Shown here one piece after another: positions 2,653-19,780 of a stretch of DNA of 20,266 nt. Made by a program: the position numbers and the translations under genes. This stretch comes from a virus: positions 1 to 20,266 of the IMG/VR virus record IMGVR_UViG_3300017739_000161; one strand, 5' to 3'. Below the pieces are notes generated by a model, which was given only the letters and a program-made list of their open reading frames with translations, was not told where the DNA came from and did no database searches. Within the stretch, counting starts at the first letter, position 1; each line of letters opens with the position of its first letter.

Positions 2653-3326
2653 TAGTCTTCATATAAATTGTTAAATGTGATTGCTGGATCTAGATAGCTT
2701 TCGTGCCCTTCTGCTGAGTGCGTCCATTGTGACGGTTTAAAGTCAGGTGCACCTTCGCCTGTTCTCCAGAGTGCAGGACTAGTAGCCCTAACTCTGTTGT
2801 TCGGTAAAGCAACTAAGTTACCTTTCCATTTACAATCATCTGTTATATATAATACATGAGATTGCTTGTGTTGTGCAGGGTCATCTGCAATATCGTTATT
2901 TGTATAGTCAACCGTAAATAAATACTTGGCTTGATAGAATTGTCCATCAAGTTTAGCTAGCCAAGGAGATGAGCTTACACGATCAATACAAACAACCGCA
3001 TGATCTCTCGATTCGCAATCCCAAGGTTGGGCTATATGATCTTCCATAGGTTCAGGCCATTCTTCTAAAGGTATATCAGCTACAAGAGCTTGTATAGGCA
3101 TTCTGGCCCACATAGCACCACCATGTATATTGCCTTCCTCCCAATCTTCTGTGTCTATTTCACATCCAGTAAAAACAACCTGAAAACTAAGAGATCTATC
3201 AGGTATTGTGTTAACTGCTATAACATAAGCATGAATAAAATCGCCGTGATAGCGTTGATGATTAGCTGTAAATTCTCGTCTGACCCAGACTTTGAAATGC
3301 GGTATGTTACTTATCAGATGGGGCAT
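2652..3326 (-). CDS. Conserved phage protein of unknown function, near neck genes
   Basis: This 224-aa protein starts MPHLISNIPHFKVWVRREF and is rich in Trp, His and Asp with alternating beta strands (LSFQVVFTGCEI, HAVVCIDRV, YQAKYLFTVDY, SHVLYITDDC). There are no membrane segments or signal peptide. I do not recognise an enzyme motif; several His, Asp and Cys residues (for example the WDCESRDHAVVCID stretch around residues 112-125) could bind metal but also fit a plain beta-barrel fold. It overlaps the gp4-like gene at a TAATG junction and follows the basic 63-aa gene, also by TAATG. Its place directly before the adaptor genes suggests a neck, tail or head-completion role, but this is only positional. 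Confidence 0.85.
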   Translation of the reverse strand: MPHLISNIPHFKVWVRREFTANHQRYHGDFIHAYVIAVNTIPDRSLSFQVVFTGCEIDTEDWEEGNIHGGAMWARMPIQALVADIPLEEWPEPMEDHIAQPWDCESRDHAVVCIDRVSSSPWLAKLDGQFYQAKYLFTVDYTNNDIADDPAQHKQSHVLYITDDCKWKGNLVALPNNRVRATSPALWRTGEGAPDFKPSQWTHSAEGHESYLDPAITFNNLYED

Positions 3327-3517
3327 TAACGATTTACTTCAGCGCCTTGTTTGGCTCTTCTTCTGTTTGAGCCACCAGCAACCTGTAAATCGGAACTAAG
3401 ATTAACTTTGCCACCTTTTGCGTAGCCTTTTGTCTTCTTCATAGCTCCGCCTTTAGCATAACCTTTAGTTTTTTTCGCAGCTCCACCCATCGAATAACCT
3501 TTTGTTTTTTTATACAT
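3326..3517 (-). CDS. Very basic 63-aa protein with three 12-residue KKTKGY repeats
   Basis: The 63-residue product contains KKTKGYSMGGAA (3-14), KKTKGYAKGGAM (15-26) and KKTKGYAKGGKV (27-38), then a non-repeated tail, NLSSDLQVAGGSNRRRAKQG. Lys, Arg and Gly dominate the repeats, giving a strongly positive, probably disordered chain suited to nucleic acid contact. It has an ATG 2 bases past the preceding stop and ends in a TAATG junction. It is the last of a run of small basic genes around the nuclease gene. I know no function; a DNA-condensing or capsid-lining role is an inference from charge. Similar GG-containing segments occur in the neighbouring basic proteins and at the end of the 722-aa protein. 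Confidence 0.8.
   Translation of the reverse strand: MYKKTKGYSMGGAAKKTKGYAKGGAMKKTKGYAKGGKVNLSSDLQVAGGSNRRRAKQGAEVNR
3404..3511 (-). repeat. Three in-frame 36-base tandem repeats
   Basis: Three consecutive 36-base units encode residues 3-38 of the 63-aa basic protein. The amino-acid units are nearly identical while codons differ (for example AAA/AAG and GCT/GCA swaps), so the copies are old or selected at protein level rather than recently duplicated. Confidence 0.85.
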
Positions 3518-4017: not shown

Positions 4018-4437
4018 TTATACTGGCTCGTAGGCACCTTCTGCAATCAAAATATCTCTATTGACCATATGTTCTGCTTCAACGTCATCCTTGCTTTGAC
4101 CAAAGTATTTGACCGCTAGATTATTGGCTACCATAGCTTTATTGATATCTAAGTCGTCAACCACGATAGAACCAAGCACTCTGCCATATTTACCTTTAGA
4201 GTCTTTTAGTTCGCTTCTGAGAACTATATCTTTACCGTTATCTATAGAGTCTTGTAGAAATTTAGATGCTAGTTTTCCACGTGCTTTTTCATCTAAGTCA
4301 CGAGTTCTAGATTCTGGAGTATCAATACCGTATAGACGTACACGGCATTTATGAAGAATGCTAAAGCCTAGATCGAGGACACAATCTACCGTATCCCCGT
4401 CTACTACTCTAGTTACTTCGCATTTATATTCGTACAC
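4018..4437 (-). CDS. Staphylococcal nuclease-like (SNase family) endonuclease
   Basis: The 139-aa product is a compact SNase-fold nuclease (PF00565 type), which cuts DNA or RNA with a calcium ion. By alignment to the staphylococcal enzyme, VVDGDTV places metal-binding Asp15, CRVRLYGIDTPES holds Arg34, Asp39 and Glu42, and KYGRVLGS holds Arg86; these match the known Asp21, Arg35, Asp40, Glu43 and Arg87. All catalytic and metal positions are therefore present. The later NKAMVANNLAVKYFG is the usual second-half helix. There is no signal peptide, unlike secreted thermonucleases, so it should act in the host cell or in the virion. It sits amid small basic proteins in the structural block. Possible roles are host nucleic-acid degradation or DNA processing; unproven. 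Confidence 0.93.
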   Translation of the reverse strand: MYEYKCEVTRVVDGDTVDCVLDLGFSILHKCRVRLYGIDTPESRTRDLDEKARGKLASKFLQDSIDNGKDIVLRSELKDSKGKYGRVLGSIVVDDLDINKAMVANNLAVKYFGQSKDDVEAEHMVNRDILIAEGAYEPV

Positions 4438-10206: not shown

Positions 10207-10698
10207 TTATTTTCGTTTACCGCCCCCGAATGTTACTGAAGAAGTTCTCCTCGGAGACATAATTGGAGAACGAGCATCAGATTCCTTCAATAGATCATTA
10301 TCGATAGCTTCCTGCATAGTTCTGCTTCTGCTTTGATAATAAGAGTTACGTTCTTCTCTTGTCTCTAGTGGAATCTTAGCTAATAATAAGCCCCCTACAC
10401 CAATTACTCCTGCGTGCTTACCATCCATGATGCTAGGAAGTTCAAAATCTGTGACCTCTTCAGCTCGAACAAGTTCGAAACCTTCACGAAGTCTAGACAT
10501 TACATTCTTCCTATCTTCTTGGTTTAAAGTCTCTGCCCTTATCCACCTGTAGACATAGCCTTCAGGGGCGGGTGGAGTATCCAATGTGCTCGGTGGAGCC
10601 CAAGGTTTGCGTGCTACGTCTTTAGCACGAGTATCAGCAGAACGGGTCGTTCTGTCATTTTCTGGTTTTAAAAACCTACCCTTATCGTCTCTATTCAT
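10207..10698 (-). CDS. Conserved protein of the scaffold-capsid interval, unknown function
   Basis: The 163-aa product begins with a polar, basic, likely disordered part (MNRDDKGRFLKPENDRTTRS, to about residue 40). It then has PAPEGYVYRWIRAETLNQED, SRLREGFELVRAEEV, and a GVIGVGGLLLAKIP segment, and ends in a basic tail, PRRTSSVTFGGGKRK. The YVYRWIR..., G.ELV.AE and G.G.LLLA.IP blocks are conserved in phages at this gene position, between scaffold and shell protein, in my recollection. A head-assembly accessory or shell-linked protein is likely. No protease motif (Ser-His or ClpP-like) is seen. It starts 5 bases after the scaffold stop. Confidence 0.82.
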   Translation of the reverse strand: MNRDDKGRFLKPENDRTTRSADTRAKDVARKPWAPPSTLDTPPAPEGYVYRWIRAETLNQEDRKNVMSRLREGFELVRAEEVTDFELPSIMDGKHAGVIGVGGLLLAKIPLETREERNSYYQSRSRTMQEAIDNDLLKESDARSPIMSPRRTSSVTFGGGKRK

Positions 10699-10703
10699 AT
10701 CTA

Positions 10704-11615
10704 TTACCTTTTTACGAATTTTGCGTACTCATTAAGAGGTACGTTTAATTTCTTTGCCATCTGAACTTCAGAAGGCGATAATCTTACTTGCTTTTTGCTT
10801 GGCTTTGCAGTTGTATCTGCTCTACCTGCTGAAGCAACTCTTTGTGTTGGTTTCTTTGTGTTTTCTCCTTTAGAAAAATCATTTGGAAACCTAGCACGAA
10901 GCCTGTTATCAACCTCAGTATAATACTCATCGCTCTTCGGATCAAATCCTTCGTCTTCTACTAATTGTTTATGAATTGTAAAAGCAGCGTTAGTCATGAT
11001 TTCGTCAGTACCAAACCACTCGTTTTTTTCTGCCCAAGCTGTAGCCTTTTCATCAGGCTCAGGCATTGGGGCTGGTTGTGCAGTCTGTATTTGAGCTTGC
11101 GGTTGAACAACTTCTTGCTCTTGTGCTTTTTGTTCTTCTTGATATTCCAATTGAGATTTAGAAGATTCAATCTTGCTTTCTTCAACTGCAATCTTTGCGA
11201 TTATATCTTGTGCTTGTGCTACCTTATCAAAGTCTTGTTCCTCGTAAGCAGCTTTTAAAGCAGACTTAGCTTGTGCTTTTTGCGACTTTAATCTGTTTTC
11301 AGCTTCTGACAAGTATGATTTATCAGATTGAGATGTTTTTACTTTAAGGTTTTTATTCTCTTCTTGTAGCTGATTAGCATAAGTAAAAGCAGATTCACTT
11401 GCTCTTTCTGCTTCTCTCAACCTACGTGTTAAGGTTGCTATACGTTTCTGAACTCGATCAGAATATTGTTCGTGCTCGTCTTTTTCTTCAGACTCTTCTG
11501 GCTCGCTTTCAACTTCTTCTACAACTTCAGCATCTTCGGATTCACTCTGTTCTTCTTCCAGTTCTACAACTGTTTCTTCTTCCAGAGATTCGTCTTTTTT
11601 TACTTCTTCGCTCAT
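10704..11615 (-). CDS. Capsid scaffolding protein
   Basis: The 303-aa protein has three parts. First is an acidic N-terminus rich in Glu and Ser (residues 2-50). Next is a long helical/coiled-coil middle from RVQKRIATLTRRLREAERAS through about 165, with Gln/Glu/Lys heptads. Last is a Gln/Pro linker and a C-terminal domain with ATAWAEKNEWFGTDEIMTNA, then RLSPSEVQMAKKLNVPLNEY. Acidic head, coiled coil and small C-terminal domain is the normal build of phage scaffolds such as those of T7 and cyanophages, and the gene precedes the shell genes. It would form the inner core that shapes the procapsid. No protease domain is fused to it. The family call is pattern-based. Confidence 0.9.
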   Translation of the reverse strand: MSEEVKKDESLEEETVVELEEEQSESEDAEVVEEVESEPEESEEKDEHEQYSDRVQKRIATLTRRLREAERASESAFTYANQLQEENKNLKVKTSQSDKSYLSEAENRLKSQKAQAKSALKAAYEEQDFDKVAQAQDIIAKIAVEESKIESSKSQLEYQEEQKAQEQEVVQPQAQIQTAQPAPMPEPDEKATAWAEKNEWFGTDEIMTNAAFTIHKQLVEDEGFDPKSDEYYTEVDNRLRARFPNDFSKGENTKKPTQRVASAGRADTTAKPSKKQVRLSPSEVQMAKKLNVPLNEYAKFVKR

Positions 11616-11623
11616 ATTTACTC

Positions 11624-12124
11624 CTATACTGCAACGATATCGGTTGGATCGTGTATGGTTGCTATAACTTCATCATCATTGATAATTCTGCATTCTGCAT
11701 CATCACCAAGCTTAAAACGAGCTCCAGCATAACGGCCAATCAATACCCATTGTTTTTCTTTACACCAAGCTTTATTACCAAACTTAGCATCTTGATAACA
11801 AAGAGGGCCCATCTTTACCACATAAGCACATACCGTTGAAAGTCTTTCACGATCAACCGTATCTTTTGTCATAATGATTCCACCTTTAGACATGCCCATA
11901 CCAGCAAATGGCAATATCAACATACGCCACCCTGTAGGTGTTGGCATTCTTTCTAAAGCTGATTTGTCGAGTAGAGTGGGGTCTAATACTTTGACACCAG
12001 GATCGACATAGGCCTTTTCAACATCTTCACCTGTCTTTTGAACAGTTTCTGAAATTGAAGCATTTTCTTTTTCGATTTCTTTTGCGACGTGATCAGGAAT
12101 GACCACCTTGTTCGTCTTCGTCAT
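11624..12124 (-). CDS. GroES-like co-chaperonin
   Basis: Residues 60-166 of this 166-aa protein match the Cpn10/GroES fold. PTGWRMLILPF lines up with the GroES start (R.LHDRVIVKR), GMSKGGIIMTKDTVDRERLS with the mobile-loop region ending in the GG-I-[IV]-[LM] contact, and ARFKLGDDAECRIINDDEVIATI with the final strand (EEVLIMSESDILAIV). The mobile-loop contact residues of GroES (Ile-Val-Leu) correspond to Ile-Ile-Met at 83-85. A 59-residue N-terminal extension, rich in Glu/Val, is absent in GroES. Phage co-chaperonins such as T4 gp31 help host GroEL fold the capsid protein; here the gene lies directly before scaffold and capsid genes. It overlaps the previous gene by 32 bases. Confidence 0.88.
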   Translation of the reverse strand: MTKTNKVVIPDHVAKEIEKENASISETVQKTGEDVEKAYVDPGVKVLDPTLLDKSALERMPTPTGWRMLILPFAGMGMSKGGIIMTKDTVDRERLSTVCAYVVKMGPLCYQDAKFGNKAWCKEKQWVLIGRYAGARFKLGDDAECRIINDDEVIATIHDPTDIVAV

Positions 12125-12308
12125 CTTCTATTACTTTTCCCAGCAGCTCTCTTAATTTTATTTCTACTTGGACCAGAGCTGTATATTGTCCACGTAGAAA
12201 CTCATATTGACTGATGTCTTTGACACCAGCCAGTAATGTGTCTTTTACGGCTTCTTGTTGTTCATGAAGCTCTTTTTTAAGTTTTTCTCTTAACCAAAGA
12301 ACTGACAT
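12093..12308 (-). CDS. Small helical protein of the head module (71 aa)
   Basis: I place the start at the ATG at 12308, which overlaps the stop of the 54-aa gene as TGATG, rather than at a TTG three bases earlier. The 71-aa product is nearly all helical: MSVLWLREKLKKELHEQQEA, then LLAGVKDISQYEFLRGQYTA, then LVQVEIKLRELLGKVIED and an acidic tail (DDEDEQGGHS). Amphipathic repeats suggest a coiled coil or a small helix hairpin. It lies between the portal region and the co-chaperonin. I recall similar short proteins (with D.S.YE.LRG...AL..VE..L.EL) in phage head modules; no function is known. Confidence 0.82.
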   Translation of the reverse strand: MSVLWLREKLKKELHEQQEAVKDTLLAGVKDISQYEFLRGQYTALVQVEIKLRELLGKVIEDDEDEQGGHS

Positions 12309-12472
12309 CAATAAACGCCTGAAAACTTCGTACCAAACTCTGCTATTCCAGCGCCTCGTACTTTACCCTTTCCCATACCAGGTTGAGGGTTAGTGTTCAC
12401 GGATACTTTTTCAGTTTTTTTAAGAGGAACGCTACCTTTGTTGCTGTAGCTTTGCCTTTTTAATATTTTCAT
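12308..12472 (-). CDS. Small basic protein after the portal gene (54 aa)
   Basis: An ATG at 12472 lies 17 bases after the portal stop, and the frame closes at TGA in a TGATG overlap with the next gene. It encodes MKILKRQSYSNKGSVPLKKT, then EKVSVNTNPQPGMGKGKVRG, ending AGIAEFGTKFSGVY. The Lys/Gly-rich central part, with PGMGKGKVRGAG, is conserved-looking and the aromatic end is hydrophobic. No known family. Coupled translation on its 3' side and lack of a gap support it being real. Confidence 0.72.
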   Translation of the reverse strand: MKILKRQSYSNKGSVPLKKTEKVSVNTNPQPGMGKGKVRGAGIAEFGTKFSGVY

Positions 12473-12489
12473 TATTTTTGTATTATAAG

Positions 12490-14952
12490 TTACTTTTGGT
12501 ATTTTTGAATTAAATCTTGCATTTTAAGTTGTTTTTGCAATTCCATACGATCACGAGTTAAGTCAGCTTTTTCATCAGCAATATCTTGTTGTGTTTGTAT
12601 TCTTTGCACATCAATCTGATCTTCTCTTACACTTTCATCTCTTCTTCTTTGTTGATCAGCAATAAATTGTTGTTGTTCTTGCTGTAGTTCTTGACCTTTA
12701 AGAGCAAGCTCCTGTTTTCTTATTGTTACTAACGGATCTTCATCAGCAGGTGCAGATATTTGTGCAGTAAACTCAACCATTAACTCAGCCAAGATTGGTG
12801 CAGAAAACTGAGAAACCAGTTGTTGCATTTGTGCTTGTACTTGTGCTTGTTGTTGTTCTGGTATTTGTTGTAGTTGTGCCTCTAATTGATCGTATTGTTG
12901 TTTTAATTCAGGTGGCATCTGTTGCATACCTAAATTATCTGCTTTCATTTGTAAATGTTGCATGATATGAGAATGGATCATAGCTTGTATAGCAGCATTA
13001 GACTGAACTGGTGGTGTATTCAATAAACTCATGTGCACAGATATATGTGCATCATGGTTTTGTTCAGGAAATGCTTGTGCTGGTTGTCCCATCAATAACA
13101 TATTATTTTCCATACCTGCTTCAATAGGTTGTGGTTCAGTACTTGGCGGTGGTACTAGTAATTGATCAGGATTCTCTACGCCAATGGCTGCATACATTCT
13201 TCGGTATGATTCATAAACACCGTCTGGCCCATGTATTTCAGGATTAGAGTTTACCAACTGCATCATTTCTTGTGCCATAGCTATTCTTTGTGCGGTGCTA
13301 AAAATATCAGGATTTGAGACAGGTATAATATCTACTCTTTCATTAAAATCTTGTGCACCAACTTCTTGATTACCTTCTGGCGTCATGTATGGGTATTCAT
13401 TTGGCAAATATTCTTGGAATACGTTAGATAAAATTTTAAATTCTTTACGTTGAGCGTTATGCAACCTTTTGTGTATGGCTGACAAAACTTTGGTTGATCT
13501 TTCTAACAAAGCCATTGTAGTTCCAACTGGTGCTTGTGAGTTTCCTTGACCTGTATTTATTTCTGCTATTGATGCAAAGGTTTTACCTGAGTCAACTAAA
13601 ATTCCTAAGAGATTAAGCAAAGTACCGCTTGGCTCTTTGAATGGTAGTGGTTGTATAGATTCTCTTAAAGAACCACCAGGGGCATCTACATCTCTGAATT
13701 CTCCAGGCTGTAAGGGTGTATCTTCATCCCTTATCCTTATACCTCTTGTCTTAAACCCAGCAGGCAGGTTTGCAAGGGTACCTGCATCAATTAATTGCCT
13801 CATAATGGATGTAGATGCTTTCGAAAGTCCACCTATCATGTGTGTCAGTCCAAAACCATAAAAGCCTAGACCTGGCAAAAATTTAAAATGTACGAAATAT
13901 TCAATTTTGTTTTTGAGAGGATCTTCTTCTTTGAAGTTTCTTCTGATAGAAAGAACTTGATTAGAATTGGAGTCAATTGTAACTATATATGGTAGTTTTA
14001 CTCCTGTTGGACCATCGGCTCCCATATCCTCAAAGCCTGGAATGTCTAAATTTGCATGTATTTCATAAAGAACTGCAACCTCACCATCATCATAACTTGG
14101 TTGCATGCCTGTTAATTTGTCTAATTCTTCACTTACCTCACTTGTTTGTGTAGCATCATCACCGAGCTCTATTGAAACATCACGATAAAAACCAACACTT
14201 TGCAGTTTTTTTACTTCGTTTTCAGATAATTTGACAATATTTGTAATACGGCCACAAGATTCTAGATCTGTCGTGTAATATGGCACTATTAAGTCTTCAG
14301 GTGCTACAAATTTAGAAACAGCACGTCCTAAAGTCTCGTCATAATAGATTTTTTTGAATGCTGAACCTGCTAAAGGTAGATAAAATAGTAATTGATCTAG
14401 TTCTTGGTCGTATTCTTCCATTTTATGAACGATTTGATAGTTCATAAACTCTTTTACCCTTTGTGCTTGTAGCTCTACATTAGAATCGTAGTTACCTACT
14501 ACTTGAGTTTTGACAGGACCACCTGAAGGTAATAACTCTTTATAAGCCTGAGCTTGAAAAGATGTTACTGCTTCGCCTAGCAAAGGGTGTATAACACCTG
14601 AAGCACCTTCAAATGGTTCTGATCTGTCTTCATCGAACTTCATACCTAAGTATTTCAGACCGTCTTTGTAAGTTTTTTCCCAATCTTCTCGTGATGATTT
14701 GTCAGCTTCTATACCAGCAATAAGATCAGAGGCTATTTTTTTTAGTTCTGATTCTTCTATTGATTCTGCTAAGTTATCGTCAAAGCCACCAACGCTTGTT
14801 TCTTCAACTTCTTCACCTAAAATAGCGCTTCCATCTTCCATCATAGTGAAACCTTCCTCATCAGAAGGCTGTACTAACTCTACATCTTCTAAAAATTCTT
14901 GTTCTTCAGGTGTGTTAGCTACTATTGGTGTGCCGTCTTGTCTTTCTATCAT
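12490..14952 (-). CDS. Portal protein (P22-like type), with Gln-rich C-terminus
   Basis: The 820-aa protein has an acidic N-terminal extension (residues 1-75). A portal-type core follows, with SREDWEKTYKDGLKYLGMKF, FEGASGVIHPLLGEAV, QAQAYKELLPSGG and a membrane-free helical clip part, LLFYLPLAGSAFKKIYYDET, then FVAPEDLIVPYYTTDLESCG. Further on are GLGFYGFGLTHMIGGLSKAS and IMRQLIDAGTLANLPAGFKT, conserved in this portal group. The last about 180 residues are Gln/Glu/Leu-rich and probably coiled coil (QQLVSQF, QQEQQQFIADQQRRRDE), which fits a barrel or crown end. It forms the dodecameric ring through which DNA enters and leaves the head. At 820 residues it is longer than P22 gp1 (725). It sits right after TerL and a small gene. 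Confidence 0.9.
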   Translation of the reverse strand: MIERQDGTPIVANTPEEQEFLEDVELVQPSDEEGFTMMEDGSAILGEEVEETSVGGFDDNLAESIEESELKKIASDLIAGIEADKSSREDWEKTYKDGLKYLGMKFDEDRSEPFEGASGVIHPLLGEAVTSFQAQAYKELLPSGGPVKTQVVGNYDSNVELQAQRVKEFMNYQIVHKMEEYDQELDQLLFYLPLAGSAFKKIYYDETLGRAVSKFVAPEDLIVPYYTTDLESCGRITNIVKLSENEVKKLQSVGFYRDVSIELGDDATQTSEVSEELDKLTGMQPSYDDGEVAVLYEIHANLDIPGFEDMGADGPTGVKLPYIVTIDSNSNQVLSIRRNFKEEDPLKNKIEYFVHFKFLPGLGFYGFGLTHMIGGLSKASTSIMRQLIDAGTLANLPAGFKTRGIRIRDEDTPLQPGEFRDVDAPGGSLRESIQPLPFKEPSGTLLNLLGILVDSGKTFASIAEINTGQGNSQAPVGTTMALLERSTKVLSAIHKRLHNAQRKEFKILSNVFQEYLPNEYPYMTPEGNQEVGAQDFNERVDIIPVSNPDIFSTAQRIAMAQEMMQLVNSNPEIHGPDGVYESYRRMYAAIGVENPDQLLVPPPSTEPQPIEAGMENNMLLMGQPAQAFPEQNHDAHISVHMSLLNTPPVQSNAAIQAMIHSHIMQHLQMKADNLGMQQMPPELKQQYDQLEAQLQQIPEQQQAQVQAQMQQLVSQFSAPILAELMVEFTAQISAPADEDPLVTIRKQELALKGQELQQEQQQFIADQQRRRDESVREDQIDVQRIQTQQDIADEKADLTRDRMELQKQLKMQDLIQKYQK

Positions 14953-15132: not shown

Positions 15133-16593
15133 TTAATAATATACCCTCTTTATTGGTGCTTTGTCTTCATCTTCATAGTCTGTTCCTAGTGAAACTAAAC
15201 CACCTTCACGAAAACGCATCAAGGCTTGAGTCATTGTATCACAGAGGTCGTCATGTGCAGAGAAAGGAAATGAAGCACACTCTTCAATCATGTCATCAGC
15301 AAATTGTTTCTTTGGTGCCCAAACTAAACCTGATTCGAAGATTGGAGCTACGGCATGCATACGAGAATGTTTGTCGTGACCACGTGATGGTGAATAGTTA
15401 ACTACTGGTATACCTTGTCTGCGCAACTCATGTGTTAAAGGTGTACCTGAAGCTTTAGCTTCTATCAAGACCATATCAGGATCCCAATACTTGTATTCTT
15501 CCATAGCCTTACTTTTTAAGTCTGGGAAATCCCAACGACCTTTCTGACAGTCAAGTAAAATAATAGAATCGGGCGCATCATCAGATGGCCTAAACACACC
15601 CCAAGTAGATATGGCGCTGAAGTCCGCTGTTTGTTTCTTACTAAAAGCCGTGTCATATGATTGTATTATATACTGAACAGCTGGCAGACTATCATGTGTC
15701 CATTCGTTCCACCAATCCCTTTTGATGATAGAGCCTTCTTCTGCGGTTGGAGTTTGCATCCATTGAGCATTCCATTTAATGCCTGGCAAAGAAGCTTTAA
15801 CTTTTAACAATTCATCTATTGGCCAAAACTCTGGCCATAAAGGGTTTTCAGTATCAGGAAAGATAGCAGGAAACTCTATCACTTCCCATTGATCAGCCAT
15901 AGGTTCTTTCTGAGCATCAAGCAATCTTTGTGTTAAATCTATTTGACTCCAACGAGTCATTACTAAAACTATGGCTCCTTTCGGTTGTAAACGTTGACGA
16001 GGTCCAGAGGTATACCATTCCCAAGCACCTTCCATAGCATTCATACTAAGAGCATCTTGTTCTGAGTGTGGATCATCAATAATCAATAAGTCCGCACCAC
16101 GACCTGTAATAGCTCCGCCAACACCAGCAGCGAAGTACTCGCCCCCTTTGTTAGTCTCCCAACGACCAGCAGATTTAGAGTCAGCCGATAAAGTCACTTC
16201 AGGAAAGATGCCTGCATACTCTTCTGTATCCATCAGGTTTCTAACTTTACGACCAAACCTGACAGCCAGCTCACCTGTGTGAGTGGTTTGCATAATCTTC
16301 TTGTTAGGAAAACGTCCCATTACCCAAGCAGGGAAGTAGGTTGAAGCGAACTCAGACTTTGTATGTCTAGGTGGCATGTTGACGATCAAACGGTTGATCT
16401 TGCCTGTTGCAATATCCTCAAGCTTTTGGGCAAATATTTTATGATGTCGGCCACAGATGAACTCAGGCCAGATATGTTCTATAAAATCCATAAAACCTTC
16501 TTGACAGGTTTCTTGTTTTTTTAGTAACTCTAGTCGTTCTTTTAGTAGCAGCGCCTCTCTAAGCTCGGCATCTGATAAGCTTTGTAATGTCAT
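15133..16593 (-). CDS. terL: Terminase large subunit (TerL)
   Basis: The 486-aa protein is the ATP-driven DNA packaging motor and endonuclease. The Walker A-like loop is PPRHTKS (74-80), which lacks the usual Gly-Lys pair and has Lys79. Walker B with the catalytic acidic pair is LLIIDDPH (169-176), and MTRW (212-215) fits the coupling motif. The RNase H-like nuclease has Asp314 (SYDTAF), Glu378 (LIEAKASG) and the Asp cluster HDDLCDT (447-453). All key parts of both domains are present, so it should be active. It overlaps the stop of the upstream 722-aa gene (ATGA). A small terminase subunit is not recognisable in this window. Confidence 0.96.
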   Translation of the reverse strand: MTLQSLSDAELREALLLKERLELLKKQETCQEGFMDFIEHIWPEFICGRHHKIFAQKLEDIATGKINRLIVNMPPRHTKSEFASTYFPAWVMGRFPNKKIMQTTHTGELAVRFGRKVRNLMDTEEYAGIFPEVTLSADSKSAGRWETNKGGEYFAAGVGGAITGRGADLLIIDDPHSEQDALSMNAMEGAWEWYTSGPRQRLQPKGAIVLVMTRWSQIDLTQRLLDAQKEPMADQWEVIEFPAIFPDTENPLWPEFWPIDELLKVKASLPGIKWNAQWMQTPTAEEGSIIKRDWWNEWTHDSLPAVQYIIQSYDTAFSKKQTADFSAISTWGVFRPSDDAPDSIILLDCQKGRWDFPDLKSKAMEEYKYWDPDMVLIEAKASGTPLTHELRRQGIPVVNYSPSRGHDKHSRMHAVAPIFESGLVWAPKKQFADDMIEECASFPFSAHDDLCDTMTQALMRFREGGLVSLGTDYEDEDKAPIKRVYY

Positions 16594-18758
16594 AAATTAT
16601 TTAATAAAGACTGTATACTTACAGGTCCTCCTTTTTTAAATGCATCAATAGTTTTTCCTTTATTTAAAGCATCACGCACAGCATCTAAATTAATACGCAT
16701 GTTATCTAGATCAACCTCTACTACATCGTATTTATTAGTTTTTTTATTGAAAATCTCAAAAGCTTGAACATCACCTTCCACTTTATACACACTACCAAAC
16801 GGCAGATCAAGTTCTTTTGCTATTTTTTGCATTTCACCATATGTGTCTTCATAAAAATCTCGAACACCTAGTTTGGCTGCATCATTATCGCCCCCAATTT
16901 CATTTGATCTAAAAAGTCTATCTAGCGGTACTTCTAAAAACTCTCTGTCAGTATTTTGTGCAGTTTCATTAATGATAGATCTAATAGGAAGTTTATGTGT
17001 TTGACTGGTATTTTTCTTAGCATACGGATCTTTTTTGTACACCAGCTTGCTATCCTCTAAATTAACATTTCGGATGGCATCATCAATACTATCTATATCC
17101 ATTTTTTTCTGAATACCAAATCTGTCGATAGGAAGTTCAGTATTACCATAATATTGAGGGTCAAGTGCAAACGTTTCATCTTCTGTTTGTCTAAAAACAT
17201 CGCTATCGTAAGCTAAGTTTCTTTGGGCAATACGACTTTGACCTGGGGCTAGATCAGTATAATCTGCTGAAAATTTTGGATTAACAACTCCTTGAAAAAA
17301 TCCTTCATTGAATAAAATTTCGTTATCTCTTTTTAACAAAGCTTTAATTTTATCAGTTATTTGATCACGTTTACGTAACCCGTCTAATACCTCTACAAGC
17401 TTTGAGCTGTTAGGGTTGTTACCAATCTTTGCAATTTCTTCAGGTTTCAACCTAGTTTTAGGTAAAGTGCTACCATCAGTTTTAATTATATTGCCTGTTT
17501 CATCTAGTTTGTAATCTTCAAACAGCAGGTTAAATGTTTCGTCTTTATTAATTTCTGCTATATCTTTATTTGTTTCTTGACCAATCTCTTTCAAATTTTT
17601 TAATTGTTCTTGTACATCATCACCTATATTTACTGTAGGTTTTTCAAAAGGATTATTAGAAAAAGGGCTGTTACTATAGTTTTCTGCTATCTTACGACGT
17701 TCTTTTTGAACCTTGCCCAGTTCTTCAGCATAATCACTTTGTATTCTATTTACTCTTATTACTTTTGGATCATTAGGATCTTTCACTACAGAGTCGAAAG
17801 CAATAGTATTGTCTGGGTTCTTATAATCTGGCGGTCCAGCGGAGTAATAACTGGAAGTATGGTCAAAGCTGTTTTTACTACCATCTACTCCTTTTACACC
17901 ATAAAGTCTTCTTTTTGCACCATCAACAGTATCGAGGCCATAATCCTTGCCTATTTGACTTTCATTAGGACCTAAAGTACGGACTTTGATGGAATCAGGC
18001 ATTTTATTGGTCATGTATAAATCTAATCCCGCTGGTGTAGCTATGTCTTTCCCATCAGTAAAAGCGGAAAAGAAACTACGAACTTCAGGTGTTAGAACTA
18101 TTTTATCCCCACTAAATTTGCCTGGCTTCACATCTTCAATAACGTTTAACATTCTTAGCTCACCAACTTTATCAGGGTTAGCTTTGACAAGTCTGGTAAC
18201 AAGCTTTATTAATGATTGTTTTTTATCAGATTTCATTTCACGCAAAGTTCTAAGATTAGGTGAAGACAGTCCCTTTTTTGTACCCTCTAATCTAGTTCCT
18301 ACATATTCGTTAGGTCTCACTTCTGGCAAAAATGTTGAAGGTCCACCAGTTGGCATATCAGAATCTACCTTAGCTACTCGGCCTAAGCTTTTACCTACCT
18401 TACCTGCTGCCCCAGCGACTGGACCGATTATCGGTAACAAGGAAGCACCTGCTAAACCTGACAGAGCTAGGTTGCCTATACCTCCTAGAGTATCATCTTG
18501 TGCAAACCTTTCATCTGCTCTGGTTTTAAACTCACCAGTTTCGAAAGCTGCAAGAGCATCTCCAAAGCCTGGTGTAATGCTTAAAGCTATTTGTTCCATA
18601 ATAGGTAATTCTTCAAAGACACGATAAGCTTCCCTGTTTTTACCTTCTGAAATTAGTTTAGTTATTTTTGCTTGTGCGACTGCACTTGATTCTTTACGGC
18701 TAGCTACTCTATCTTCTAGCCTTTTGATTGAATCGAGAAATTCTTGTTTGGTAGCCAT
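16590..18758 (-). CDS. Large protein with IQSD-type polyvalent-protein motifs
   Basis: The 722-aa protein begins with a helical region and a Gly/Ala-rich hydrophobic stretch at about 91-120 (LGGIGNLALSGLAGASLLPI, then GPVAGAAGKVGK) that could insert in a membrane. VIRVNRIQSDYAEE (333-346) resembles the V-EEIQSDW signature of large polyvalent-protein-associated domains, with a preceding NTIAFDSV part and a following PFEKP (370-374) like the PF element there. Near the end, KLGVRDFYEDTYGEMQKIAK (629-648) resembles the G-FYD-LP...K element of the same domain. It ends FKKGGPVSIQSLLNNL. Such proteins are proposed to enter the host with the DNA; this one is between an Arg/Met-rich gene and TerL. Domain assignment is from memory and may be partial. 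Confidence 0.86.
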   Translation of the reverse strand: MATKQEFLDSIKRLEDRVASRKESSAVAQAKITKLISEGKNREAYRVFEELPIMEQIALSITPGFGDALAAFETGEFKTRADERFAQDDTLGGIGNLALSGLAGASLLPIIGPVAGAAGKVGKSLGRVAKVDSDMPTGGPSTFLPEVRPNEYVGTRLEGTKKGLSSPNLRTLREMKSDKKQSLIKLVTRLVKANPDKVGELRMLNVIEDVKPGKFSGDKIVLTPEVRSFFSAFTDGKDIATPAGLDLYMTNKMPDSIKVRTLGPNESQIGKDYGLDTVDGAKRRLYGVKGVDGSKNSFDHTSSYYSAGPPDYKNPDNTIAFDSVVKDPNDPKVIRVNRIQSDYAEELGKVQKERRKIAENYSNSPFSNNPFEKPTVNIGDDVQEQLKNLKEIGQETNKDIAEINKDETFNLLFEDYKLDETGNIIKTDGSTLPKTRLKPEEIAKIGNNPNSSKLVEVLDGLRKRDQITDKIKALLKRDNEILFNEGFFQGVVNPKFSADYTDLAPGQSRIAQRNLAYDSDVFRQTEDETFALDPQYYGNTELPIDRFGIQKKMDIDSIDDAIRNVNLEDSKLVYKKDPYAKKNTSQTHKLPIRSIINETAQNTDREFLEVPLDRLFRSNEIGGDNDAAKLGVRDFYEDTYGEMQKIAKELDLPFGSVYKVEGDVQAFEIFNKKTNKYDVVEVDLDNMRINLDAVRDALNKGKTIDAFKKGGPVSIQSLLNNL

Positions 18759-18763
18759 TCATA

Positions 18764-19780
18764 TTAATCCGTCAAAGGCATGTTTCTTTCTTTAAATCTT
18801 CTTTCAACAAACATAGCTTGTGCTTTAACATCAGGATCTACAGTTCCGCCCTGGTCTTCTATTTGCTTTATGTTGTCTATCAATCTACGTCTGAGAAAAT
18901 TTACCTTGTCTATACCGATAGGATCATTTCTCAAGTCTACACCTTTTATTGCTTCTATAATTTTTAAAACAGAAGCTGAAAAAGGATTAGTAACGAAGAA
19001 AGGAACTCCATCGGGTCTGTCACTTTCTGCTTGTGGTCTGCCATATATATCAGTAAAGAATGGATCATTTTTTCTTCTATTTTCGTATTCATTATTTCTG
19101 AATATTGTATTTGGTAAAATTACAGATTCTGCATATTTTGAATCGGTATCTATTATATTGTTCAATTGATCTATTAACATTTCGGGCGACCTTCTAGGAA
19201 AGTTCTGAATATCCATAATACCGCCCTCTTCTCTTCCTAAAATCTTTTTGACAACATCAGGTCTTTCTTTAGCTAAAGCAGCTAGCCCTGCATTAGGGTA
19301 TTTATTTGCTTCACCACCGTTTGCCATAAATCTTCTGCCTTGCATGTCCATCATAGGATTTGGCATAGGCGGTAGACCTGAGCCTCTTGGTGGTACTCCT
19401 GGCATCTGATTTGCCATACCTAACTGAGGTGGTTGCTTCGGCATCATACCGTCTCTTGGCATAATGTCTGACATTCTTCCTGGTGTGGCCATAGGTAAGT
19501 TATTGCCAAGAGCAGGTAACTCTTTTTCAAGATTATAATTACCGATTCTATCGTTAGGATTAAAACCTTCTGATCTTCTTCTAGGTAACATATTACGCAT
19601 TATAGGTAAACTACCGAGGCCCATACCAGGCATCATCATGTTTCTACCCATACCACGCATACCCCTAAGGTTACGCATCCTTTCCATAAGTTGTGGTCTT
19701 TGTCTCAAAAAGCCACCCATTCGATTAGCTAACATAGGTCTTCTTTTTTTTATCTTATTTAACAAGCCTCTAAAAAACAT
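18764..19780 (-). CDS. Met/Arg/Pro-rich protein, unknown function
   Basis: In this 338-aa protein the first 152 residues contain about 25 Met along with many Arg, Gly and Pro (for example LMERMRNLRGMRGMGRNMMM). It therefore looks low-complexity and disordered, with a positive N-terminus (LLNKIKKRRP). A central FMANGGEANKYPNAGLAALA (151-170) is a conserved-looking motif I recall from other marine phage proteins. The C-terminal part is a more normal helical domain with KIIEAIKGVDLRNDPIGIDK. It starts in a TAATG overlap with the 89-aa gene. Role unknown; a virion internal protein or chaperone-like disordered partner are guesses. Confidence 0.85.
   Translation of the reverse strand: MFFRGLLNKIKKRRPMLANRMGGFLRQRPQLMERMRNLRGMRGMGRNMMMPGMGLGSLPIMRNMLPRRRSEGFNPNDRIGNYNLEKELPALGNNLPMATPGRMSDIMPRDGMMPKQPPQLGMANQMPGVPPRGSGLPPMPNPMMDMQGRRFMANGGEANKYPNAGLAALAKERPDVVKKILGREEGGIMDIQNFPRRSPEMLIDQLNNIIDTDSKYAESVILPNTIFRNNEYENRRKNDPFFTDIYGRPQAESDRPDGVPFFVTNPFSASVLKIIEAIKGVDLRNDPIGIDKVNFLRRRLIDNIKQIEDQGGTVDPDVKAQAMFVERRFKERNMPLTD

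Follow-up and report, generated by a model that had tools for sequence, protein, structure and literature searches.

This work describes a family of large phage proteins encoded immediately upstream of the terminase large subunit (TerL), represented by the 722-amino-acid (aa) product of an open reading frame (ORF) at positions 16590 to 18758, minus strand, of IMG/VR virus record IMGVR_UViG_3300017739_000161 (20,266 bases, analyzed in full and referred to here as the window). The family is undescribed, and profile comparisons support its placement as a distant sister of the large phage proteins that carry the signature EIQSDW. Its members join constant N- and C-terminal ends to a hypervariable folded center, and we assign a probability of roughly one-half to the reading that the 722-aa protein is a virion-carried, host-directed effector, i.e., head-internal cargo or an ejection protein with a host-acting middle domain.

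A protein family coupled to TerL

Every credible gene of the window lies on the minus strand. The 722-aa frame is open and starts with ATG, and its TGA stop codon overlaps the TerL start codon in the sequence ATGA, through which translation of the two proteins is likely coupled. Related loci were gathered from IMG/VR with TerL and then with alignments of the family, giving 93 homologous ORFs (mostly 650 to 860 aa). In all 74 loci that include TerL, some of which are the same contig present twice, the family gene lies immediately 5' of TerL, which bears out the adjacency described in the original prediction, an earlier reading of this DNA. The ORF end and TerL start fall together as in the window in 66 of these loci; in the remaining 8, the TerL reading frame starts at the same place, and the ORF caller chose a later ATG. 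Searches of Pfam, PHROGs, NCBIfam, and PDB sequences gave no match to the 722-aa protein, and a tblastn search of 50,697 INPHARED phage records retrieved none. Likewise, no credible Pfam or PHROGs match was obtained for any of 31 family members scanned, and none of the 84,980 prokaryote genomes scanned yielded a relative.

The motifs on which the original prediction was built are real and occupy the residues given there: VIRVNRIQSDYAEE (333 to 346), NPFEKP (369 to 374), GVRDFYEDTYGEMQKIAK (631 to 648), and a Gly/Ala hydrophobic stretch (91 to 120) that belongs to a conserved N-terminal module. Conservation was scored over 43 nonredundant, divergent family members. Nearly invariant positions include E73, E76, F77, R80, L91, G92, G95, and P109 in the N-terminal module and, beyond it, G199-E200-L201, Y286, H300, F321, R338, Q340-S341-D342, Y537, P578, R593, Y636, E642, E649, A706-F707-K708, and G710-G711. 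As QSD, H300, R593, Y636, and the glycine pair at 710 and 711 are invariant or nearly so across such divergent sequences, the motifs are more than chance resemblances. The long members (L052, L060, L048, and L249; 1069 to 1491 aa) extend at the C terminus past AFKxGG. In some, the extension includes a second FAEGGEVPS-like motif, and it terminates in sequences such as GLGLSxRGSPxLNIGFGRxF; in L060, there is in addition LNEELFHVGQF, which resembles a metallopeptidase motif.

A hypervariable center between fixed borders

The diversification of the family is most readily seen by comparing the window with locus L002. The two DNAs are 97% identical over 6.1 kb, from TerL through portal, and the gene for the 722-aa protein is 92% identical to about codon 139; past this point almost no DNA similarity is left until about 100 bases before the stop codon. 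At the protein level, identity is 99.8% for TerL, 98.8% for portal, 99% for the N terminus, and 38.6% for the center. The same borders recur in the pairs L260/L256 and L258/L009, such that residues 1 to 139 and the last ∼30 residues are conserved and the folded part between them is hypervariable. For pairs with TerL 99 to 100% identical, some of which involve duplicate contigs, median protein identity is 93% for the N terminus, 48% for the center, and 98% for portal, and the center falls below 50% in 22 of 40 pairs. One border falls on a predicted disordered linker (residues 104 to 145) and the other on the C-terminal GG tail. Since the centers are still homologous and retain their invariant residues, the pattern represents allelic diversification or exchange of one domain rather than random cargo, and centers may have been exchanged by recombination in the flanks.

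Kinship with EIQSDW proteins

A canonical reference set was defined as the 120 IMG/VR loci encoding the exact signature EIQSDWHQ (e.g., L088, L112, L122, and L169). A hidden Markov model (HMM) of their EIQSDW domains matches the family with E values down to about 2e-5 among ∼6,900 ORFs (5e-5 at Z=15000), with matches running through the part from FYD to the tail. Alignment with hhalign pairs HKLPIR with HELAxKR, FYED with FYDK, and AFKKGG with the canonical tail; in the maximum-accuracy alignment with the insert removed, QSD also falls on QSD. The local hhalign score with the insert removed is 37.0, compared to null maxima of 24.6 (block-shuffled) and 17.8 (column-shuffled) and a reversed-profile score of 13.6, and local hhalign on the full alignments, insert included, aligns only short pieces. 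H300 corresponds to canonical H113 (nearly invariant there) and Y636 to canonical Y289 (fully invariant there), and the order H, QSD, [K/R], FY, tail is common to both groups. The exact EIQSDWHQ signature is absent from the family, in which QSD alone is kept, EI and HQ are lost, and the Trp is replaced by Tyr or Phe, a substitution correctly noted earlier for the 722-aa protein. The family is therefore filed as a sister branch and not as a canonical member.

Both branches reside in the TerL/portal cassette, on different sides of TerL. Among the 44 canonical loci with a TerL or portal recognizable from those of the window, portal directly follows the EIQSDW gene (-4 to 23 bases) in 30 of the 31 loci with a recognizable portal, and TerL is found upstream in the same orientation in 33 of 33. 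In L169, a 4046-aa protein joins the EIQSDW domain to a Strawberry-notch helicase and LPD38. The EIQSDW proteins (L088 to L207) have no Pfam or NCBIfam entry.

These results uphold the original prediction in part. It had likened the 722-aa protein to the large polyvalent-protein-associated domains (LPDs), and the distant kinship to the EIQSDW class holds; one member of this class bears a helicase and LPD38 in the manner of polyvalent proteins. An LPD assignment is not supported, as neither the 722-aa protein nor the 31 family members match a Pfam LPD. Nor is the EIQSDW domain a Pfam LPD, with LPD39 touched by only 1 of 62 canonical members (E value, 3e-5), and QSD is not mentioned in the main text of Iyer et al. 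(PMC5512222). The separation of ∼250 residues between the last two motifs, formerly regarded as unusual, proves ordinary: canonical QSD-to-FYD distances span about 120 to 500 residues, mostly 200 to 230, and the QSD-to-FYED distance of 295 in the 722-aa protein is long and unexceptional.

Predicted structure and a possible GNAT fold

An AlphaFold model of the 722-aa protein, built with 43 relatives, has a predicted local distance difference test score (pLDDT) of 80.6, with residues 146 to 708 well predicted; the canonical EIQSDW domain was modeled at a pLDDT of 82.2. The predicted order of elements matches in both models, i.e., strands, QSD at a strand end, helix, [K/R] helix, strand, FY helix, two strands, and helix. 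Foldseek relates the model of the 722-aa protein to two uncharacterized phage proteins (E values, 2e-5 and 6e-4). Its search of the PDB with this model gave nothing significant, and 13 among the 50 matches listed are GNAT acetyltransferases. For the canonical domain, the best PDB match has an E value of 1.1e-3, and essentially all of the 50 matches listed are GNAT-fold proteins: 48 are acetyltransferases or proteins that we take to contain a GNAT domain, and the other two are AQ1966, presumably of the same superfamily. The catalytic Tyr of GNATs sits in the helix that precedes the final two strands, and the invariant Tyr of the family and of the EIQSDW proteins is predicted at this place. For the EIQSDW domain, AlphaFold and Foldseek together hint at a fold of the GNAT (acyltransferase) type, which we regard as a lead and not as a result.

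Proposed role and alternatives

As a virion-carried effector, the 722-aa protein would be a large protein produced late and jointly with TerL via the overlapping codons, belonging to the TerL-linked branch of a superfamily whose other branch is encoded just upstream of portal. Its constant ends, namely, the N-terminal helices with the hydrophobic segment and the short GG tail, would fix the protein in the head and guide its delivery into the cell, with or before the DNA. The folded middle, which appears enzyme-like (invariant H, QSD, R, and Y) and may adopt a GNAT-like acyltransferase fold, would then act in the newly infected cell by modifying or binding a host target. We infer packaging, delivery, and action on a host target from the position, module layout, and diversification of the protein; a middle that diversifies rapidly between fixed borders while the packaging genes stay constant is as expected of a host-directed effector. 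Several observations weigh against this proposal. Hypervariability is also compatible with a surface protein or a late-made anti-defense protein, and the peak 19-residue hydropathy of 1.76 (residues 97 to 115; 1.37 to 1.64 at the same place in relatives) is borderline for a membrane helix. For the enzymatic part, the GNAT template-modeling (TM) scores of the canonical domain are low (≤0.34), Pfam GNAT models match none of the 62 canonical members scanned, and hhalign to a profile of 16 Escherichia coli GNATs yields a score of only 20.4, with a null maximum of 18.6, which is not significant.

Among the alternatives, a packaging or assembly factor that binds TerL or portal during head filling (terminase accessory or scaffold-like) and stays out of the host, its middle tuned to other phage parts, would account for the invariant ATGA coupling and for the portal-adjacent position of the EIQSDW relatives. 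We consider it rather unlikely: TerL and portal are mostly 97 to 100% identical in pairs whose centers share only 30 to 48% identity, so the middle does not covary with its supposed partners, and the EIQSDW domain also occurs in the 4046-aa protein with helicase and LPD38. The hypervariable module and enzyme-like invariant residues could also belong to a late intracellular anti-defense or host-takeover protein, expressed with the packaging cassette and not packaged; this is less probable still, given that a late structural position is ill timed for countering defenses and that the conserved N-terminal hydrophobic module and tail would go unexplained.

Hypervariable lectin or tail-fiber regions are known in HTVC010P-type pelagiphages (PMC10504331), and an adhesin or host-recognition protein of this kind might be imagined here. 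The location of the gene at TerL, an AlphaFold model in which no beta-rich fiber or lectin fold is predicted, and the portal-adjacent, polyvalent-type nature of the kin families make this improbable. Taken whole, the original prediction of an LPD polyvalent protein whose domain is unusually split by an insert is at least as hard to sustain. The motif order that inspired it is real, but besides the missing LPD match, both parts lie within one confidently predicted folded region (146 to 708), and large inserts are normal in the superfamily.

A bolder version of the effector proposal is that these proteins constitute a terminase-coupled, virion-delivered acyltransferase family with conserved delivery ends and exchangeable hypervariable GNAT-like effector modules. 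Abundant marine podoviruses would deploy it, and its kin in many phages would be the portal-adjacent EIQSDW effectors. This version is speculative, and we would not expect it to hold in every part. If true, it would make the family a phage counterpart of polymorphic effectors. The present findings single out one gene, at a constant position beside the packaging motor, in which marine phages that are almost the same elsewhere diverge strongly. They also connect two dark families and supply an initial fold hypothesis (GNAT) for the EIQSDW domain, which is widespread and has no name.

Feature map and genomic context

Coordinates of the gene, its parts, and its neighbors in the window are collected in Table 1.

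Table 1. Features of the 722-aa protein gene and its surroundings
Feature	Position	Strand	Basis
722-aa ORF, TerL-linked family member	16590..18758	-	Open frame, homologs, constant position immediately 5' of TerL
ATGA overlap with TerL start	16590..16593	-	Overlapping stop/start codons
Conserved N-terminal module, residues 1-139; helices; motif FEELPIxDQIAxSxxPGxGDAxAAxExGEF	18342..18758	-	Conservation, model, DNA identity
Gly/Ala hydrophobic stretch, 91-120; helix 90-105, then predicted disorder 104-145	18399..18488	-	Hydropathy, model, conservation
Hypervariable folded domain, 146-690, distant EIQSDW type	16689..18323	-	Profile alignment, model, identity comparisons
QSD, 340-342, nearly invariant, strand end	17733..17741	-	Alignment and model
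NPFEKP, 369-374	17637..17654	-	Kept only in close relatives
Insert, 361-588, between QSD helix and LPIR helix; mostly helical, well predicted	16995..17678	-	Profile alignment and model
LPIR, 590-593; aligns with LAxKR helix of EIQSDW proteins; R593 invariant	16980..16991	-	hhalign and alignment
FYED, 635-638; aligns with FYDK; Y636 invariant	16845..16856	-	hhalign and alignment
Conserved C-terminal tail AFKKGGPVSIQSLLNNL, 706-722	16593..16643	-	Alignment
TerL	15133..16593	-	Database matches
Portal protein	12490..14952	-	Database matches
Upstream 338-aa ORF; conserved N terminus, divergent C terminus, GG motifs	18764..19780	-	Comparison with L002

The upstream ORF shares the N terminus MFFRGLxNKIKKRRPMLAxRMGGFLRQRP with its L002 counterpart (273 aa). 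The short motif type [FMY]xxGGx[VIA]x[IL] turns up repeatedly in these phages, in large and small proteins that are unrelated to each other, and is possibly a shared targeting or processing tag. Sites of this type in the window comprise the C-terminal tail of the 722-aa protein, the TerL C terminus (FREGGLVSL), the upstream ORF (NGGEA and EEGGIMDI), and AKGGA repeats at 3326 to 3517; others are found in L005 at 10430 to 12904 (AMGGPV, ADGGLVDI, and AEGGEV), and the proteins concerned include the PcfJ-like protein of the same genomic slot.

The window TerL is 59 to 63% identical to those of Pelagibacter phages HTVC023P and HTVC027P, phage 023Pt_psg01, and phage DSL-LC04. It is followed by portal, a GroES-like protein, and the major capsid protein, in the same order as in DSL-LC04, and the core genes of HTVC023P-type phages include GroES and terminase (PMC9599517). 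Any host assignment past this likeness to Pelagibacter phages is tentative. The GroES-like co-chaperonin (11624 to 12124; Cpn10 E value, 7.8e-5; PHROG GroES, 1.6e-13) carries ∼60 extra N-terminal residues. By eye, a 139-aa protein at 4018 to 4437, starting MYEYKCEVTRVVDGDTVDCVLDLGFSILHKCRVRLYGIDTPESR and encoded among structural genes, appears staphylococcal-nuclease-like (thermonuclease), and an ORF at 3 to 554 of L002 resembles a terminase small subunit and is separated from the downstream TerL by >5 kb of DNA with many small genes.

Comparison with known systems

The closest relatives, the portal-adjacent EIQSDW proteins, resemble the family in element order, predicted secondary-structure order, large size, and residence in the TerL-portal cassette. 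The family differs in lying 5' of TerL rather than 5' of portal, in its own N-terminal module and hypervariable center, and in the replacement of Trp by Tyr or Phe. GNAT acyltransferases, the Foldseek neighbors of the canonical domain, share the position of the invariant Tyr; relative to them, the family has a large insert, low TM scores, and no sequence-profile support.

According to Iyer et al. (2017; PMC5512222), the majority of phage polyvalent proteins belong to phages that package by means of portal and terminase. Like polyvalent proteins, the 722-aa protein is large and encoded in the terminase-portal cassette, and its kin domain is fused to helicase and LPD38 in L169. It differs in that it has one recognized folded domain and matches no catalogued polyvalent domain; polyvalent proteins combine at least two domains of disparate activity, and Pfam, PHROGs, and NCBIfam revealed no second known domain in it. 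Podovirus ejection proteins (T7 gp14-16 and P22 gp7/16/20; PMC8954989) are alike in proposed role, size variation, mosaicism, and a hydrophobic segment. Their genes follow the tail genes, whereas the 722-aa gene lies at TerL, and PHROGs and the PDB gave no match linking the two.

HTVC027P gp41/42, psg01 URG13084/5, and the DSL-LC04 PcfJ-like proteins were considered as family homologs and rejected, as no HMM match was obtained. HTVC023P-type pelagiphages (HTVC023P, HTVC027P, and 023Pt_psg01) and DSL-LC04 share with the window GroES and the order of head genes; in place of a homolog of the 722-aa protein, they encode other large proteins between TerL and portal, the slot being occupied by a PcfJ-like protein in DSL-LC04. 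As such, the packaging cassette looks like a slot for large cargo genes.
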